NCBI GenBank assembly: GCA_030583665.1
Contig: CP129469.1
Location: 124,001 to 188,000, forward strand
Origin: Candidatus Jettenia sp. AMX2
GTDB lineage: Bacteria > Planctomycetota > Brocadiia > Brocadiales > Brocadiaceae
Length of the DNA: 64,000 nucleotides
Direction: 5' to 3'
Shown: positions 11,181 through 45,777 of the stretch, piece by piece
Position numbering within the stretch: position 1 is the stretch's first letter
Layout: each line of letters begins with the position of its first letter
Program-made: the position numbers and the translations under genes
The notes under the pieces: generated by a model
What the model was told of the DNA's origin: nothing
The model's input: only the letters and a program-made list of their open reading frames with translations
Database searches by the model: none

Positions 11181-11309
11181 TTTCCATAAACCAGTTTTGG
11201 GCATGATGATTTTGTCTTTAGCCGGCAGGTATTTTGGCGGTATTCCAGGGAGTCTGCATATATGATGAAATCAAGAATTTACTGCCTGTTGATGAGAATT
11301 ATTTTATTT

Positions 11310-11459
11310 GTAACAATTTAGTTTTTTGAAAAAGTAGGGGCGAAGCATTTGCCGGTTTGGATATAAACGCATTATACCAATCTATTGCAAATGCTTCGCC
11401 CCTACACTGTGCGGTAAACATCGCTATTATTGGCATTTTTCAAAAAACTAAATTGTTAC
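11310..11459. repeat. 150-bp nested palindrome (MITE-like)
   Basis: Two inverted repeats lie one inside the other. The outer arms (11310-11333 and 11436-11459) are 24 bases and perfectly complementary; the inner arms (11334-11352 and 11387-11405) are 19 bases and perfectly complementary, with core AGGGGCGAAGCATTTGC. Related inner arms recur at 35300-35372 and 36848-36918. The size and structure fit a miniature inverted-repeat element with no coding capacity. Confidence 0.85.
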
Positions 11460-11488
11460 TTTTAATTCAATTACCGTGGGGCCGGTCC

Positions 11489-37411: not shown

Positions 37412-37675
37412 TTAAAAATTATCGATTATCTTGTGGGTACCGACGTAATAAAGATAGAATGTATTGCCTGTCCTTTTAAATACGCACCGGTAGCCTTTAT
37501 CAACATAAAATTCCCAAAAGTCTGTTCCCTCAAGTTTATGGATTTGCAATGAATTGTGTTTGGGATTGTCTTTAATGTGGATTAATTGCTTCTTGAACTT
37601 CCTCTTTGTTTCTTTCGGCAAACTATCATACTGCGATAAGAACCCCGGTTCTATAGCGATAAGATGCTGACTCAA
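37412..37675 (-). CDS. RelE/ParE-like toxin
   Basis: 87 residues. The RelE fold shows as FLSQYDSLPKETKRKFKKQLIHIKDNP, then IHKLEGTDFWEFYVDKGYRCVFKRTGNTFYLYYVGTHKII, with basic residues on the predicted active face. Such toxins cleave mRNA on ribosomes or poison gyrase. The start overlaps the antitoxin stop by 4 bases, so the toxin is translated after its antidote. It sits among repeats and pseudogenes, a typical place for addiction modules. Confidence 0.85.
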   Translation of the reverse strand: MSQHLIAIEPGFLSQYDSLPKETKRKFKKQLIHIKDNPKHNSLQIHKLEGTDFWEFYVDKGYRCVFKRTGNTFYLYYVGTHKIIDNF

Positions 37676-37941
37676 TCCTTTAATTCCTCGAGAAACTTCA
37701 CTATATTAAATGTTTTAAAATTACCCGTTTTAAAATTCTTATCGGCCTTTTTTACCTTGTCCTGCATCTCGTGAGTCCAAAACCATGCCTGGGAACGTGG
37801 AATATTTATTACTGGTTCTAAAACAAGCTTACCATTTTCTACGTTGAATATCAGCCGGTCTCCCCCTTTTATGCTCAATGCATCCCTTATTTCTTTAGGA
37901 ATTGCAATCTGACCCTTTGACGATACTGTTACAGATTTCAT
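37672..37941 (-). CDS. AbrB/MazE-type antitoxin
   Basis: 89 residues. The N-terminal KSVTVSSKGQIAIPKEIRDALSIKGGDRLIF is a textbook SpoVT/AbrB swapped-hairpin DNA-binding domain. The C-terminal 45 residues (from about PRSQAWFWTHEMQDKV) would wrap and inhibit the toxin. It precedes and overlaps the RelE-like gene and likely represses their shared promoter. AbrB paired with RelE-fold toxin is less common than AbrB paired with PIN or MazF. Confidence 0.88.
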   Translation of the reverse strand: MKSVTVSSKGQIAIPKEIRDALSIKGGDRLIFNVENGKLVLEPVINIPRSQAWFWTHEMQDKVKKADKNFKTGNFKTFNIVKFLEELKD

Positions 37942-38376: not shown

Positions 38377-38812
38377 ATGCGATACTTATGTATTGGGTTA
38401 GTTTCTATCGTGATATTCCTGGGAGTTTCCCGTACTTTTTACTAATCCGGTCTGGTCTATTGAGGGGGAATATTTTGAGGGATGTACGTGTAATTCCGGT
38501 TGTCCCTGTCTGTTTGGCAGTGAGACAACTCATAATAATACCTGCAAGATTTCCGGTGTTTTTCGTATTCAGAAGGGAAATTACGGACAACATGCATTGG
38601 ATGGCTATACCGTGATAGGAGTAACGGATTTTACTGCAAGCTTGAAAAGGAGAAGGAAGGAAAAGGGTCACCCATTATATTCCCTTGTATTCCAAATCAC
38701 AAATCAAGATTTAACAACTTTTTCACATTTTTCATTTTCGCTAATCTCATTGAAGTTCATGTTTCTTCAGAAATTTAAGAATTTTGAGTGTTCTCATCTC
38801 ATGAAAGAATGA
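38377..38812 (+). pseudogene. DUF1326-like exported protein, frameshifted and truncated
   Basis: The ATG at 38377 opens a signal-peptide-like frame (MRYLCIGLVSIVIFLGVSRTF). At a T5 tract (38436-38440) one extra T shifts the frame; past it the text reads TNPVWSIEGEYFEGCTCNSG then CPCLFGS, C-x-I and FRIQKGNYGQHALDGY, the cysteine-rich start of DUF1326 proteins. After about residue 75 the match ends in unrelated sequence. Family members are about 200 residues, so the 3' half is missing. The 3' end overlaps the radical SAM gene on the other strand. Confidence 0.65.
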
Positions 38813-40942
38813 ATCTACTTTTGGTTTTATAGCTTCCGAATCCATAGCTAGCGACAAAGCCAGTATATTAACGACTTTATCTGCCGTATAATTTCCATTA
38901 CAAAGTAATAATATTGCATAACCTTCCGGTGCTACTCTCGTTGAATGTTGTCTATAAAGATCGTAGATTAAATAGTTGTTTTCCGGTTTTACTTCCTCAT
39001 TGAACCCCTTTTTCAGATTCTCCTGTATTTTGAGAATATCGAAATTCAAATGGTTAAGGTATACACCTTGCCTAATAATCGGGTAGTGGTTGCGAATATC
39101 AACTTTCGACTCATCAATTGAAGCACAAAGATTTTCTTCAAGATCATGAAATTTCTTGATAACCTTCAGAAGATCATCCGCTTTGTAACGTAATGAATAC
39201 AGGAAAAACTGTTCCCGGAACAATTTGCCCCAGATTGCCCCGAATTGTAGTTTTTTTATTGCAAGCTGCATGAAACGATCCTTTAGATTCAACGCCATCT
39301 GTTCGGTTTGTCCGGTTAAGTAATCGAAAATGAAATGATATGAGAACGGTTTGGGAGAAAAACGGGAACGAATAGTAACCCTGTACTTGGAAGGGTTTTG
39401 GCTGATCGGAGAATGTTTTCCAATTGCAAAGGTAGAGGCACCTACCGAAAACACGTAGTCTTTATTTTTCAAGATAAAGTCGATGGTTTCTTCACCATCC
39501 TCCATCGTTTCCTCTGGAAATCCAAAAATCACAAATAGGTGTACCATTATACCTGCTTCATAAAAACGTTTCAGAATTGTTGGTGCCAGGTCAAAATTGA
39601 TGCCTTTTCTGATCTTTTTCTGTATTCTGAGGCTGGCAGATTCAAGCCCAATGAAAAGCATCTTTATGCCTGCTTGAGACATTAACGAGCAGATTTCATC
39701 CGAGAACGCAGTTTCAAGCCTGACCTGTGCCAGCAAATAAACATCTAGTTTACTTTCGATTATTTTTGTAGATATCATACGTGACGCCGATGGCGAAAGA
39801 GCTTCATCTGAAAATGAAAAATATTTGGTACCATATTTAATATTCAGGGTGCGAAGATCATTTGCAACCTGTTCAGCATCTCTTTGTTGAAAACCTTCAC
39901 GATAAATGTAACTATGATCGCAGAAGGTGCATTTTCCCCAATAGCAACCTCTTGAACTCAGGATCGGTAATATCAGGAACGGTGCAAAGTATTTGTCCAG
40001 TTTCAACCCATCAAAATCTGGAGTAGGAAGTCTGTTGATTTTCTCAGGTCGACACATTTCCGTTTGGATTACCTCCTCGCAGTCCAGGAAAATCAAATTG
40101 GGTACATTTGCCAATTTCTTTCCATTTTTAATAGCTTGGATCAATTTTAACAGAGGCTTTTCGCCCTCAAATATTACAACGCTATCAGCAAAAGTTCGAA
40201 AAAAATCAGGCAGGTTTCTCAGCCCATCAATACACCGAGACAGCAAATTCCCTCCAATTGTAATGTGGATCTCTGGACGATGTGCCTTCATCCAGTTGGT
40301 CATGGTCAACGCTGGAACCAACTGGCTGGAATCATTGATAGAGATACCTGCTAACAGATATTTTTCCGATGTTAAAACATCTTCGATTTGTTTTTGGAAA
40401 AAACGGAGAAGAAAATTGTTCTTTCCCTTAGATATAAATTTTGCTATCTCATCAAAGGATTCTATATCGATTGGAAAACAGAGTTCATCCAAAGCCCACT
40501 CAACCCTACAGCTAATATTTATAATATTAATGGCAGTATTCAGGATGGATTTTTGGATGCTCAACTTACTTAGATCAAAGAAATTTTCTTCGGAACGAAA
40601 AAAATCCTTTGTTTCTTCGATCTTTGATAGCACCTCATCAAAGGCACTACGGATCAAATAGATGGAATAGAAATGTCTCTGTTCATCCGGGCGTAAAGAC
40701 TGTTTCTTATTCAACTGATGGAATATTTGATCCAGTTTACAACAGAGAGGCTTGAGTTGCGTCCGGGATAACAGCTTTTCATAAAAGTCCAGGTTCAGGT
40801 CACACTGGTTGACCGCAATTCCATGGTTTTTTAAATAGGCAGTGAGCGCTGGTATACTCAAGTAGGGTTGCATCGGTGTCCATTGCGGTGGAAATATTAA
40901 GAGTACATCCCGACTATGACTCACAGGGCATTTTTGTTTCAT
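38747..40942 (-). CDS. B12-type radical SAM enzyme with C-terminal PqqD-like domain
   Basis: 731 residues. The N-terminal part (VLLIFPPQWTPMQPYLSIPA onward, to about 290) looks like a cobalamin-binding domain of the B12-radical SAM class. The radical SAM core holds the 4Fe-4S ligands in RGCYWGKCTFC (Cys333, Cys338, Cys341), then FSFSDEALSP, GLESAS and IFGFPEET. The C-terminal residues about 655-725 (APEGYAILLLCNGNYTADKV, KPKVDSFFHEMRTLKIL) resemble a PqqD/RiPP-recognition winged helix. Such enzymes methylate or cross-link unactivated positions, often on peptides. The 158-residue gene 61 bases upstream on the same strand is the natural substrate candidate. The substrate is an inference. Confidence 0.83.
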   Translation of the reverse strand: MKQKCPVSHSRDVLLIFPPQWTPMQPYLSIPALTAYLKNHGIAVNQCDLNLDFYEKLLSRTQLKPLCCKLDQIFHQLNKKQSLRPDEQRHFYSIYLIRSAFDEVLSKIEETKDFFRSEENFFDLSKLSIQKSILNTAINIINISCRVEWALDELCFPIDIESFDEIAKFISKGKNNFLLRFFQKQIEDVLTSEKYLLAGISINDSSQLVPALTMTNWMKAHRPEIHITIGGNLLSRCIDGLRNLPDFFRTFADSVVIFEGEKPLLKLIQAIKNGKKLANVPNLIFLDCEEVIQTEMCRPEKINRLPTPDFDGLKLDKYFAPFLILPILSSRGCYWGKCTFCDHSYIYREGFQQRDAEQVANDLRTLNIKYGTKYFSFSDEALSPSASRMISTKIIESKLDVYLLAQVRLETAFSDEICSLMSQAGIKMLFIGLESASLRIQKKIRKGINFDLAPTILKRFYEAGIMVHLFVIFGFPEETMEDGEETIDFILKNKDYVFSVGASTFAIGKHSPISQNPSKYRVTIRSRFSPKPFSYHFIFDYLTGQTEQMALNLKDRFMQLAIKKLQFGAIWGKLFREQFFLYSLRYKADDLLKVIKKFHDLEENLCASIDESKVDIRNHYPIIRQGVYLNHLNFDILKIQENLKKGFNEEVKPENNYLIYDLYRQHSTRVAPEGYAILLLCNGNYTADKVVNILALSLAMDSEAIKPKVDSFFHEMRTLKILKFLKKHELQ

Positions 40943-41003
40943 AAGATTTGGCCTGTTTTCCCAGAATAATTACCAGACTGAAGATGTCCTGGCAAATGAT
41001 ACG

Positions 41004-41480
41004 CTATACCGGTTCGATTTCAGCGAATTGATCGGGCCAATACACAGCTGAATCAGCCGATGATGCATCTTTCTTTTTTCTTTTATTAGAATTGAAATTA
41101 TTATTGTTATTTACGACGCCAGTTGAAGCACTGCTACTGACCGAGATTTCTATCATCCCATGAGGTACCATATTTTGGGCCTGGCATATCACCTTTGGAT
41201 CAAAAGACATATTCCTTTTTAAAAGAGAAGCAGCTTTAACTACCTGGGGTGTTGCAACTTTTTTAAGATTTTCAAGATCCAAATCCTTTAACGCCTTTTC
41301 GTTGCTCAGAGAAACCTTTATAGTTCTATAGTCTTCTCCGTTCTTTACTCGATCCCTTACTTGGATATCAACTATTCCTGGCGGAATTTTTCTCACCCCA
41401 TCCAGGATATCTTCTAGATCAAAAGTTATTAGCCTCTTGATCATCACTACTAAATCCTTAGCTTCCTTTGTGATGCTCAT
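41004..41480 (-). CDS. Uncharacterised 158-residue protein; candidate RiPP precursor or substrate
   Basis: No family recognised. A strong AGGGGG ribosome site sits 7 bases before the ATG. The protein has an internal duplication: residues 14-42 (IKRLITFDLEDILDGVRKI, PPGIVDIQVR) and 87-115 (LKRNMSFDPKVICQAQNMV, PHGMIEISVS) share KR-x3-FD-x9-11-P-x-G-[IM]-[IV]-x-I-x-V with a 73-residue period. The last 45 residues differ: a Ser/Ala patch, five consecutive Asn, a basic KRKKK, and an acidic/aromatic tail VYWPDQFAEIEPV. A folded leader with a low-complexity C-terminal core fits a modified peptide substrate for the radical SAM gene 61 bases downstream. It could instead be a small structural or regulatory protein. 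Confidence 0.6.
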   Translation of the reverse strand: MSITKEAKDLVVMIKRLITFDLEDILDGVRKIPPGIVDIQVRDRVKNGEDYRTIKVSLSNEKALKDLDLENLKKVATPQVVKAASLLKRNMSFDPKVICQAQNMVPHGMIEISVSSSASTGVVNNNNNFNSNKRKKKDASSADSAVYWPDQFAEIEPV

Positions 41481-41921
41481 ACTTAACCCCCTTTCTTTTT
41501 TGGTTTAATGACACCTATTTTATTCCTCAAATCCAATAAACGATTAAATCTTCAAGCTTTTTAGAGTTTTTTCATAATATAATAAAGACAGGGTATTATC
41601 AAGTTTTTTGTGTAAAATCTTTTTCTGCTATTTGTGTGAATCGCTTATCCTGGAGGATTGTAAGAAATCATTATGTATTGCATTTTAATTCCTTTGCAGC
41701 TTTGTTTACGATGGTTTTAGGATTGGCACACCACTTAAAACTTGCTGTTTCTGGGGAAATTCAACATCAGGTTTTTCGGACAAATATTTGAACTTGATCG
41801 ATCGATAAACCCGAAAACGAAATACGATCATTATTATCATGAAAAATATTCCTTCGCTCATTTCCTCGTAATAAGACTTGTCCTCGTGCAAACAAGGAGC
41901 AGAGAAGGGTCGCCCATTAGA
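41481..41921. other. Intergenic upstream of the radical SAM cassette
   Basis: 441 AT-rich bases. A 61-codon minus-strand frame (41706-41891) has no family feature and no ribosome site, so it is not called. The cassette promoter probably lies here. The right edge is the inverted repeat of an IS1182-like element. Confidence 0.45.
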
Positions 41922-43792
41922 AGGCTGTCCGAGAATACAGATTTTTTCAATTATTCATAATCGAGAGGTACAATTTTGTTGAGATAATCAAGTACAATGA
42001 TATAATGAAGTTCCAATAAGAACACGAAAACAAAATCACACCAGGCAGTTACATTTTTGCCTCGAACCAACAATTTTAATGAAGAAAGATTCCAATCCAT
42101 TCATTGCTTTACCTGTAGACAGATCATGGAGAATCAATCATAATGACGAAATTTAAACCATTTCATGAATTTCAGAAACCCCTGATAGGGTTTACTCCAG
42201 AATCTTTTTTAGACTATATAGAAACAGTATTGCCAAAGGATCATTTATGCAGATTAGTAAAAGAGGTAGTATTTTCATGAGATACAGAATCCTTAGAGGC
42301 CAAATATTCATTTTTAGGACAACGAACATATCATCCGAAGTTACAGTTAAGTCTCTTATTTTATGGGTATGCTACAGGGGTTCGCAGCAGTAGGGAATTG
42401 GAGGAGAAGTGCATCAGTGACCACATTTATATATATTTAATGCAATGTTATACACCAGATCATCGGACGATCAGCGATTTCCGCAAGAACAACCTTAAAG
42501 AGATTGAGAAGTATTTTGTGGATATTGTAAGGATATTCAGCACGTTAGGTTATACCAGTATAGGAAAGATATATATAGATGGTACAAAGCTCAAAGGCAA
42601 TGCCTCAGCAAAGCGGACGAAAGACCGTGCAGGGTTTGAGAAATGGCTTTCAGAGATAGAGGAGGAGGTGGCAACAGTATTAAAGGAAGCGGAAACTATC
42701 GACAAGCAAGAAGACGAGAGCTGCAAAACTGATCCGGAACTAGAGGCATTACAGAAGAATCTATCAGACCGAGCATGCCTGAGAAGTAAGATAGAAGAGG
42801 CGTTAGAGGCGATGAAGGAGGAAGGGAAAAAAAAGATCAATCTTACCGACAGGGATGCCAATCATATGAAATCCGGGGGAAGTAAAGACATACGTCCTGG
42901 CTATAACTGTCAGATGGCAGTAACGGAAGCCGGAATTATTGTAGGGGCGGAACCAGTAACAGATGCAAATGACCGGAATCAATTGAAGCCGGTGATAGAG
43001 CAGGCAGAGTCAAACACTCAGGAAAAAATTAAAGAAGTAGCGGCAGATTGTGGATACGGGAGTTATGCAAATTATGAGTATCTGGAGCAAAGACAAAGAG
43101 AAATAGATGGATATGTATTTTCAACAATACAAATCGGGAGAGTATAAAAAAGAAGCACATCGGTATCACTACAGTAATTTTACCTATGATGTGATAACTG
43201 ATAGCTACATATGTCCGGAAGGGAAACGATTACCATACTGGAAGACCAGAACAAATGTGACCGATAGCCGCAAGTGGAATCATAAAGTTTACAAAGGTAC
43301 GGAGTGTGGGGCATGTCAGAAGAAGTCATTATGTACAAAGGCAAAGGCGAGAGAACTGCTAATAGATATTCGCGAACCTCTTTTACAAAAGATGAGAAAA
43401 AAGTTGGTATCTGATGAAGGAAAGCGAAAATATTTTATGCGTCAGTATCTCATCGAACCAGTCTTTGGGCATTTGAAATTTAATATTGGGTATCGAAACT
43501 TTCTCTTACGAGGTCTGGAAAAAGTCCGTGCGGAATTTCAGCTGATGTGTATTGGATGGAATTTAAAAAAGATGTTGAAAATGGGAATAAGGCCTGCAAC
43601 AGGGTAGGGTAATATCAGGAAAACAAGCTCTCCTTGGGTAGTTTTATGTACTTTTTATCCGATTGAGATAAAATTATGATTTAGATGGAAATATTTTAAC
43701 CTTTTTCTGACTTGTTTATAGATTGCATTTAATTTATACACAATTTGCCTTGTCTTTTATTTTTGTTTATTTGCCATATTCCCGGACAGCCT
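41922..43792 (+). mobile_element. IS1182-like insertion sequence, decayed
   Basis: Terminal inverted repeats AGGCTGTCCGAGAATA (41922-41937) and its complement at 43777-43792 match at 15 of 16 bases. The 1871-base span fits IS1182 elements. The transposase inside has a nonsense codon and a frameshift. I see no clean target duplication. Confidence 0.85.
42143..43607 (+). pseudogene. IS1182-family transposase, broken
   Basis: Starts MTKFKPFHEFQKPLIGFTPE at 42143. An in-frame TGA (42278-42280) interrupts it; the same frame continues with ATGVRSSRELEEK, IDGTKLKGNAS (first catalytic Asp), DRDANHMKS and VAADCGYGSY (second Asp), then a one-base frameshift near 43115-43145. The final segment contains the zinc-finger-like CGACQKKSLC and the catalytic Glu in EPVFGHLKFNIGYRNFLLRG. 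Joined, the protein would be about 485 residues, normal for the family. It is not functional as read. Confidence 0.87.
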
Positions 43793-44211: not shown

Positions 44212-45777
44212 TTATTCTCTCATGCACATCTTCAGCCTACGGATCCGCTCCCACGTGGCAAAGAAATCCTTCAGCCAGTCATTATATCTAAGGATTCGGT
44301 ATACGATCTTCCTCCCCGTTTTCAGGATTTGACAGGGAAGTAAAATCAGGGTATTCAGAAACCGTCGAAATTCCATCTTCTGTACCTGCATTCCCCTCAC
44401 CGCGTTGGGCATCAACAACCCAAACCATGACTTTAAATTCCACGCCAGCGCTGCCATGACCATATACGCCCAGTTGCTCTCCAAATCCCTTACCGGCATC
44501 TTCATCGCATTTACACCGTTCTTCAACTGCTCTACCACATTCTCCTGATCACAGCGCCCGTTTGCCAACTCCACCAATTCCTCTGCCGTCATATCCCGCC
44601 GGGTAGTAATGTAAAAAAAGTATCGTATATCATCAAGCAACACCTTCTCGCCCTTTTCTACACTCAGGTTTTTCATCAGCACAATTACCCGATAGCTCTG
44701 TTTACACTTCATTGGCCGATACTCAAACTCCGACACATGCTCACTCGCCAAACGAATATCCTTATATTCTCGTTCCTTCACGATCCGCTCTTTTACCTTT
44801 TCCGGCTTGCTTCTCTCCTTGGTCTTTACCCTATATTTCGGTTTACGGCTTAACACCCTCCATGCTTTCCCCGGTAACTCCTCTGCATGTCTTACCAGAA
44901 CCTTATGTGCATCCATCCCAAAAACAAAGTCTACCTCCCGTGACCACCGATCAAAATTCTCCGTCAGCGAAAAGTCCGTGTCTCCTCTCACACATATCCG
45001 CCTGGCATACGGCTTCACCAATCCTATCGCACGGTCTACCCACTCCACACACCCATCATGGCTCGGCTTGTTACCAGGTCTATTTACCAGATACAACACC
45101 TCTTTCGTATTCCACAACGATATGATTAACGGTGCATATCCCCATATCCCTTTGTACGATATGTCCATCCCCTCTTTACATCCACCATATGTCTTCGCTA
45201 TCGTACCGTCTATATCAACCAGCGCTTCTTCAAGGATCTCCTTTCTCGCTTCTTTCCATACACGAAGCCGACCTGTATTGATGCACTCCATCAGCTTTAG
45301 AATATCTTCTCTCCTGAACCGCCGGGTAAAATCTCCGGCTGTCGTCGGGTCTGGTATCCTCTGCGCTCCCACTGCGTTCAGATACCCCTCATCCTGACGA
45401 TTCAGCTCTATATCCTCTAATCGTATATTCCCTGAAAGAACATTATACGCTATGTTCAATACATGATCTGATTCATGGTAGGGCATGTGCATCTTCAACA
45501 ATTCAAGTTTCTCGTCAATCTCTTTTACTAACCCGCATTTTAGCACCATCTGATGGATTGCTCCTATCCCTCCACAGTTTATTGCCTGGTTCCTTTCTGC
45601 TATCTCGTAATGAATGTTCCTCGCTCTGAACATCGGTCGGTCTTGCTCTTCCCACTGCTTCCGCCCCAGTCGCCTTTCGATTTTTTGTTTCCTTCTGCTG
45701 AGTATTTTGTTATACTTCTGTTCTGATTTTTTGCTCATCTGAAATGCCCCTTTTTCTGGTTGTTGGTTTTTTTGCAA
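44212..45777 (-). CDS. IS1380-family transposase
   Basis: 521 residues (Met14, MSKKSEQKYN, is an alternative start). DDE catalytic residues appear as VDIDGTIAKTYGG (first Asp), CVRGDTDFSLTENFDRW (second Asp) and ANGRCDQENVVEQLKNGVNAM (Glu in the C-terminal helix), the IS1380/IS4-group layout. The frame is intact, so the element may be active. It differs strongly from the second IS1380-like transposase at 57596-59113. Confidence 0.92.
   Translation of the reverse strand: MQKNQQPEKGAFQMSKKSEQKYNKILSRRKQKIERRLGRKQWEEQDRPMFRARNIHYEIAERNQAINCGGIGAIHQMVLKCGLVKEIDEKLELLKMHMPYHESDHVLNIAYNVLSGNIRLEDIELNRQDEGYLNAVGAQRIPDPTTAGDFTRRFRREDILKLMECINTGRLRVWKEARKEILEEALVDIDGTIAKTYGGCKEGMDISYKGIWGYAPLIISLWNTKEVLYLVNRPGNKPSHDGCVEWVDRAIGLVKPYARRICVRGDTDFSLTENFDRWSREVDFVFGMDAHKVLVRHAEELPGKAWRVLSRKPKYRVKTKERSKPEKVKERIVKEREYKDIRLASEHVSEFEYRPMKCKQSYRVIVLMKNLSVEKGEKVLLDDIRYFFYITTRRDMTAEELVELANGRCDQENVVEQLKNGVNAMKMPVRDLESNWAYMVMAALAWNLKSWFGLLMPNAVRGMQVQKMEFRRFLNTLILLPCQILKTGRKIVYRILRYNDWLKDFFATWERIRRLKMCMRE

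Follow-up and report, generated by a model that had tools for sequence, protein, structure and literature searches.

RRE-fused B12 radical SAM enzymes carry out difficult C-H chemistry on peptides and, to our knowledge, few of their substrates have been identified. The closest and best characterized analogue of the enzyme described here is ApyD, an RRE-containing B12 radical SAM enzyme which makes beta-methyltyrosine on a RiPP (PMC10635010). Like ApyD, our enzyme appears to combine a B12-type radical SAM core and an RRE in one protein, and its gene lies beside that of a candidate peptide substrate. However, it scores 81.6 bits against the ApyD cut-off of 750 and is therefore not an ApyD orthologue. 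Additionally, the apy clusters contain MNIO, P450 and methyltransferase genes (PMC10635010), unlike the gene pair analyzed here. PbsB is a B12 radical SAM enzyme which crosslinks ortho-tyrosines in a biphenomycin-like RiPP (PMC12257519). The two are alike in that PbsB works on a ribosomal peptide and our enzyme has a candidate peptide substrate, whereas the PbsB cluster is larger and carries its RRE on a separate partner protein (PMC12257519). Lastly, the best NCBIfam match of the enzyme is TIGR03975, the RiPP maturation radical SAM C-methyltransferase rSAM_ocin_1 (E=7e-34, residues 177–557), but it reaches 117 bits against a cut-off of 282 and hence falls outside that curated family.

The gene pair is found in a stretch of 64,000 nucleotides from Candidatus Jettenia sp. 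AMX2, referred to throughout as the window; coordinates are positions within it. The first-pass annotation had described two ORFs here, a small-protein gene with a strong ribosome site followed after 61 bases by the enzyme gene. The positions, lengths and 61 bp gap were as described, and AAGGGGG directly precedes the small-protein start. The layout is as follows:

38747..40942, minus strand: enzyme gene, 731 aa, ATG start; putative B12-type radical SAM enzyme with C-terminal RRE
41004..41480, minus strand: small-protein gene, 158 aa, ATG start; orphan family, candidate substrate (precursor)
41487..41493, minus strand: Shine-Dalgarno-like AAGGGGG of the small-protein gene, from sequence; largely retained in G022, a second genome carrying the pair
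41574..41602, minus strand: promoter-like TTGATA-17-TATTAT upstream of the gene pair, 10/12 consensus matches

The promoter-like site is mostly conserved in G022, and such sites are no more numerous in the upstream region than in shuffles. We infer that the small-protein gene and the enzyme gene downstream of it are read as one transcript. On balance, and with moderate confidence, we interpret the pair as a minimal, horizontally moving RiPP-like cassette of maturase and substrate, in which the small protein is probably the substrate of the enzyme. Enzymes of this type are known; what is new is the orphan substrate candidate, the minimal two-gene architecture and the mobility between anammox genera.

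Transfer, selection and surroundings of the gene pair

The small protein occurs in two of the 62 genomes of the order, the window's genome and G022, which belongs to another anammox genus, and both times its gene lies 61 bp before the enzyme gene. The enzymes of the two genomes are 92% identical and the small proteins 96% identical, while G001, a congener of the window's genome, does not carry the pair. When 20 kb of G022 were compared with the window, DNA similarity was confined to a single block (41640–38734), from just 5' of the promoter-like site to about 12 bases past the enzyme stop:

38734..41640, minus strand: putative transferred block with promoter region and both genes; 92.3% DNA identity with G022, flanks unrelated

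Because this block is 92% identical against a background of 67–79% for ordinary genes of the two genomes, and because G001 lacks the pair, the transfer appears to be recent. Most simply, the promoter region and the two genes would have moved as one unit, and the earlier claim of a two-gene cassette thus describes a real unit. The pair is conserved in both genomes that carry it, yet these share one recent transfer, and their co-occurrence therefore counts as a single event. The idea that the two genes would also keep company elsewhere held only in part: the pair is intact in G022, but the small protein is never a neighbor of enzyme relatives that share 36% identity or less. Judged from its sequence, the G022 copy adjoins rnf-type genes. 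In relatives of G022 an insertion-free site could not be defined, since in the closest of them the contigs end at the flanking gene.

Purifying selection acts on both genes: dN/dS between the window and G022 is 0.17 in the enzyme and 0.067 in the small protein. With these values and their protein identities across genera, neither is a chance ORF. The C-terminal half of the small protein is nearly frozen: residues 72–158 show 1 nonsynonymous and 16 synonymous codon differences (dN/dS 0.02), compared with 5 and 5 in residues 1–71 (Fisher p=0.015, with the split point picked after the alignment was inspected). A modified region would be expected in this conserved half. Some of the neighboring sequence consists of insertion sequences and broken genes, which would fit a decaying remnant beside an accidental neighbor and no functional pair at all. 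We consider this hardly credible, as two genera carry both ORFs intact and dN/dS is far below 1.

The surroundings agree with the earlier description of insertion sequences nearby and no adjacent transporter or protease. The block lies between a toxin-antitoxin-like pair and insertion sequences, the cassette is poorer in G+C (36–39%) than most of the surrounding sequence, and neither a protease nor a transporter adjoins the gene pair. Just upstream of the cassette are a transposase split over two reading frames (42398–43607) and an intact DDE transposase (44212–45777). Downstream, a MazE-like antitoxin is paired with a weak ParE-like toxin (37412–37941). Farther away in the window, at 11299–11471, is a repeat of about 150 bases which has dozens of copies in the related genome G024; it partly matches both strands and looks like a small mobile repeat element.

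An AT-rich block recently transferred between genera, with insertion sequences and toxin-antitoxin-like genes around it, could also be a defense, addiction or selfish unit kept through joint movement, with any peptide chemistry incidental. We regard this as improbable, since the small protein matches no toxin, antitoxin or defense family in Pfam or NCBIfam, codon-level constraint is strong, and the family of the enzyme occurs in RiPP and other contexts.

The small protein

The small protein had been described as belonging to no known family, and we likewise found no relative in Pfam, NCBIfam or PDB sequences. Among the 62 genomes of the order, 392 genomes of the phylum, plasmids, phages and viral contigs, the only relative is the G022 homologue adjoining the enzyme gene. 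A weak match in G397 was rejected as chance (53 residues covered, internal stop), as were single-repeat profile matches in G025 and G027, which fall within other genes or frames. Precursor and leader families (NHLP, Nif11, lanthipeptide and others) gave no match in Pfam or NCBIfam, and the protein contains no recognized cleavage motif. AlphaFold2 returned no meaningful fold (pLDDT 37). The sequence nevertheless has an internal organization:

41337..41444, minus strand: internal repeat 1, residues 13–48, with FDLE; local alignment
41118..41225, minus strand: internal repeat 2, residues 86–121, with FDPK; local alignment
41007..41117, minus strand: Asn/Lys-rich linker and C-terminal tail ending ...SADSAVYWPDQFAEIEPV, residues 122–158; proposed modified region

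The two repeats align with a score of 52, compared with a shuffled mean of 23 (sd 4.4), and 0 of 3000 shuffles reach this score. The duplicated motif reads KRxxxFDxxxI...PxGxxxIxV. The FDLE of repeat 1 resembles the FNLD box of class I lanthipeptide leaders, which is recognized by lantibiotic enzymes (PMC5294574). An FDLE-like motif arises by chance in 0.6% of shuffles and the resemblance is therefore a lead only.

Domains of the enzyme

Four regions were delimited in the 731-residue enzyme:

39473..39958, minus strand: radical SAM core, residues 329–490; Pfam PF04055 E=2.7e-16
39920..39946, minus strand: cluster motif CYWGKCTFC (C333, C338, C341), CX4CX2C; from sequence, cysteines invariant in the alignments of relatives
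40151..40393, minus strand: B12-binding-like region, residues 184–264; PF02310 E=0.047, clearer in homologues
38750..38980, minus strand: RRE (PqqD-fold) domain, residues about 655–731; PqqD family alignment, AlphaFold2 and Foldseek

The PF04055 core and the three-cysteine motif place the enzyme in the radical SAM superfamily, and the cysteines 333, 338 and 341 named in the first-pass annotation are those of the CX4CX2C motif. Its assignment as B12-type fared less evenly. The enzyme's own PF02310 match is weakly detectable and below the cut-off, whereas the equivalent region of related enzymes matches at 1e-4 to 1e-9. Additionally, NCBIfam models of B12 radical SAM families match across this region of the enzyme. 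The putative B12 domain is thus supported mainly through homologues. PhpK (E=9e-33) and ApyD (E=4e-23, residues 181–490) are among the matching models, but the curated cut-off of PhpK is also missed (113 of 600 bits). Because the enzyme scores below the curated cut-offs for TIGR03975, ApyD and PhpK alike, it belongs, by these profiles, to none of the named families tested.

The identity of the C-terminal domain as an RRE of the PqqD fold is well supported by homology and by the predicted structure. A plain Pfam scan of the enzyme gave PqqD at E=0.055, which is sub-threshold and unconvincing alone. Of seven aligned C-termini (those of the enzyme, the G022 orthologue and relatives from Methanoperedens, Dehalococcoidales, an uncultured archaeon, Brocadiaceae and Aminicenantes), all match PqqD, the best at 2.1e-11. 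The Dehalococcoidales homologue (L033) lies above the curated PqqD cut-off, at 1.9e-10. The AlphaFold2 model of residues 590–731, with a mean pLDDT of 84.2, shows the RRE arrangement of a beta-sheet with three helices, and its best solved Foldseek matches in the PDB include leader-bound TbiB1, TglHI and PqqD, each at a probability of 1.00. The E-values of these Foldseek matches start at 1.7e-3, which is modest but usual at such a domain size, and TM reaches up to 0.83, measured on the small target. Lower in the ranking are TruD, a sactipeptide maturase and lantibiotic dehydratases. The PqqD-like domain claimed earlier is borne out by family alignment and fold, and the profile check proposed for this C-terminus succeeds for the family members, if not for the single protein. 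The top matches also include GdmN, a carbamoyltransferase acting on a small molecule, and the RRE fold alone is therefore no proof of a peptide substrate.

Related enzymes and the proposed modification

A scan of genome contigs yielded 80 relatives of the enzyme. The nearest RRE-fused homologues come from Dehalococcoidales (L033), Methanoperedens (L051) and an uncultured archaeon (L034); they are 33–35% identical, with the similarity extending into the RRE, and the family tree does not resolve these nearest RRE-fused relatives. Although RRE-fused like our enzyme, they have no obvious precursor alongside and stand alone by unrelated genes. No relative of the small protein was found at the other related enzyme loci. 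Relatives about 600 residues long occur in nearly all anammox genomes and are also common in Nitrospira and Nitrospina.

More distant relatives lie in RiPP-type loci. At L084, a related enzyme lies beside an NHLP-clan precursor, which passes its cut-off, together with a YydG-like radical SAM enzyme. At L107 and L098 the neighbors of related enzymes are small Gly-rich peptides, sometimes together with another radical SAM enzyme; at L112 they are a repetitive peptide and a PqqD protein. The genome of the window itself has a 116-aa peptide of four repeats, which occurs with another radical SAM protein near a related enzyme (L025).

The solitary RRE-fused homologues bear on another explanation, namely that the enzyme acts on a different substrate, a protein from elsewhere or a small molecule, and that the small protein is a travelling partner, chaperone or regulator. 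RRE-like folds in small-molecule enzymes such as GdmN fit this explanation, as does the length of the small protein, which at 158 aa exceeds the size of typical precursors. It must, however, accommodate the strict pairing of the two genes, their shared promoter region and their movement in one block. Additionally, the most conserved part of the small protein is the C-terminal half, with its flexible Asn/Lys-rich linker and tail, and related enzymes do adjoin RiPP precursors. We consider a different substrate unlikely, but the most serious competitor to the interpretation that the small protein is modified by the enzyme.

For a maturase and its substrate, we propose the following sequence of events. 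One transcript would give rise to the 158-aa protein substrate and the B12-dependent radical SAM enzyme. The RRE would bind the small protein at its leader-like N-terminal half, with one or both copies of the duplicated FD-containing motif as the probable docking site. The C-terminal part, which is strongly conserved, would then be modified by the radical SAM/B12 core. The most likely modification is C-methylation at an unactivated carbon of the kind ApyD carries out, with Y147, W148 or F152 as candidate sites; a C-C crosslink is less likely. We infer binding, methylation and its site, and likewise the fate of the product: it may stay in the cell, as no transporter or protease adjoins the genes, though one encoded farther away could serve. 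A bolder possibility, which we put forward tentatively and think doubtful, is a new RiPP-like class in anammox bacteria: a self-contained module mobile between genera, with a 158-aa substrate combining a duplicated docking motif, a flexible linker and a frozen tail, and with an intracellular, uncut product.

With the enzyme and its likely substrate moving alone as a two-gene unit, the substrate question for this enzyme family becomes testable by one co-expression. The gene pair also indicates exchange of such modules among anammox genera, a group whose peptide chemistry has received little description in the literature examined.

Several loci met in the scan merit description in their own right. 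Aminicenantes (L107, 4119–9720) and Smithella (L098, 2369–5724) have in common a precursor-like peptide of roughly 70 aa beside B12 radical SAM enzymes; this peptide type has an LLEAL..EVAYN.GGG-like ending and no NCBIfam match. The window's genome holds a second RiPP-like cluster at about 3243600–3249234 of G000:C1 (L025, 7607–13235). Its peptide contains four repeats of about 25 aa of the AKNIAGTIEDVAKKYKA type, is 97% identical in G001 and is absent from the rest of the order. Also encoded in this cluster are an 803-aa B12 radical SAM enzyme, which matches PqqD weakly at its C-terminus, and a protein whose own match is weak and PqqD-like. Lastly, in another genome of the order (G057:C185; L032, 848–5657), a B12 radical SAM enzyme is found near a protein with a RamC-like lanthipeptide kinase domain and a 149-aa Lys-rich peptide with the tail VTTVTVTTVTIPDTAY, an unusual candidate RiPP cluster.
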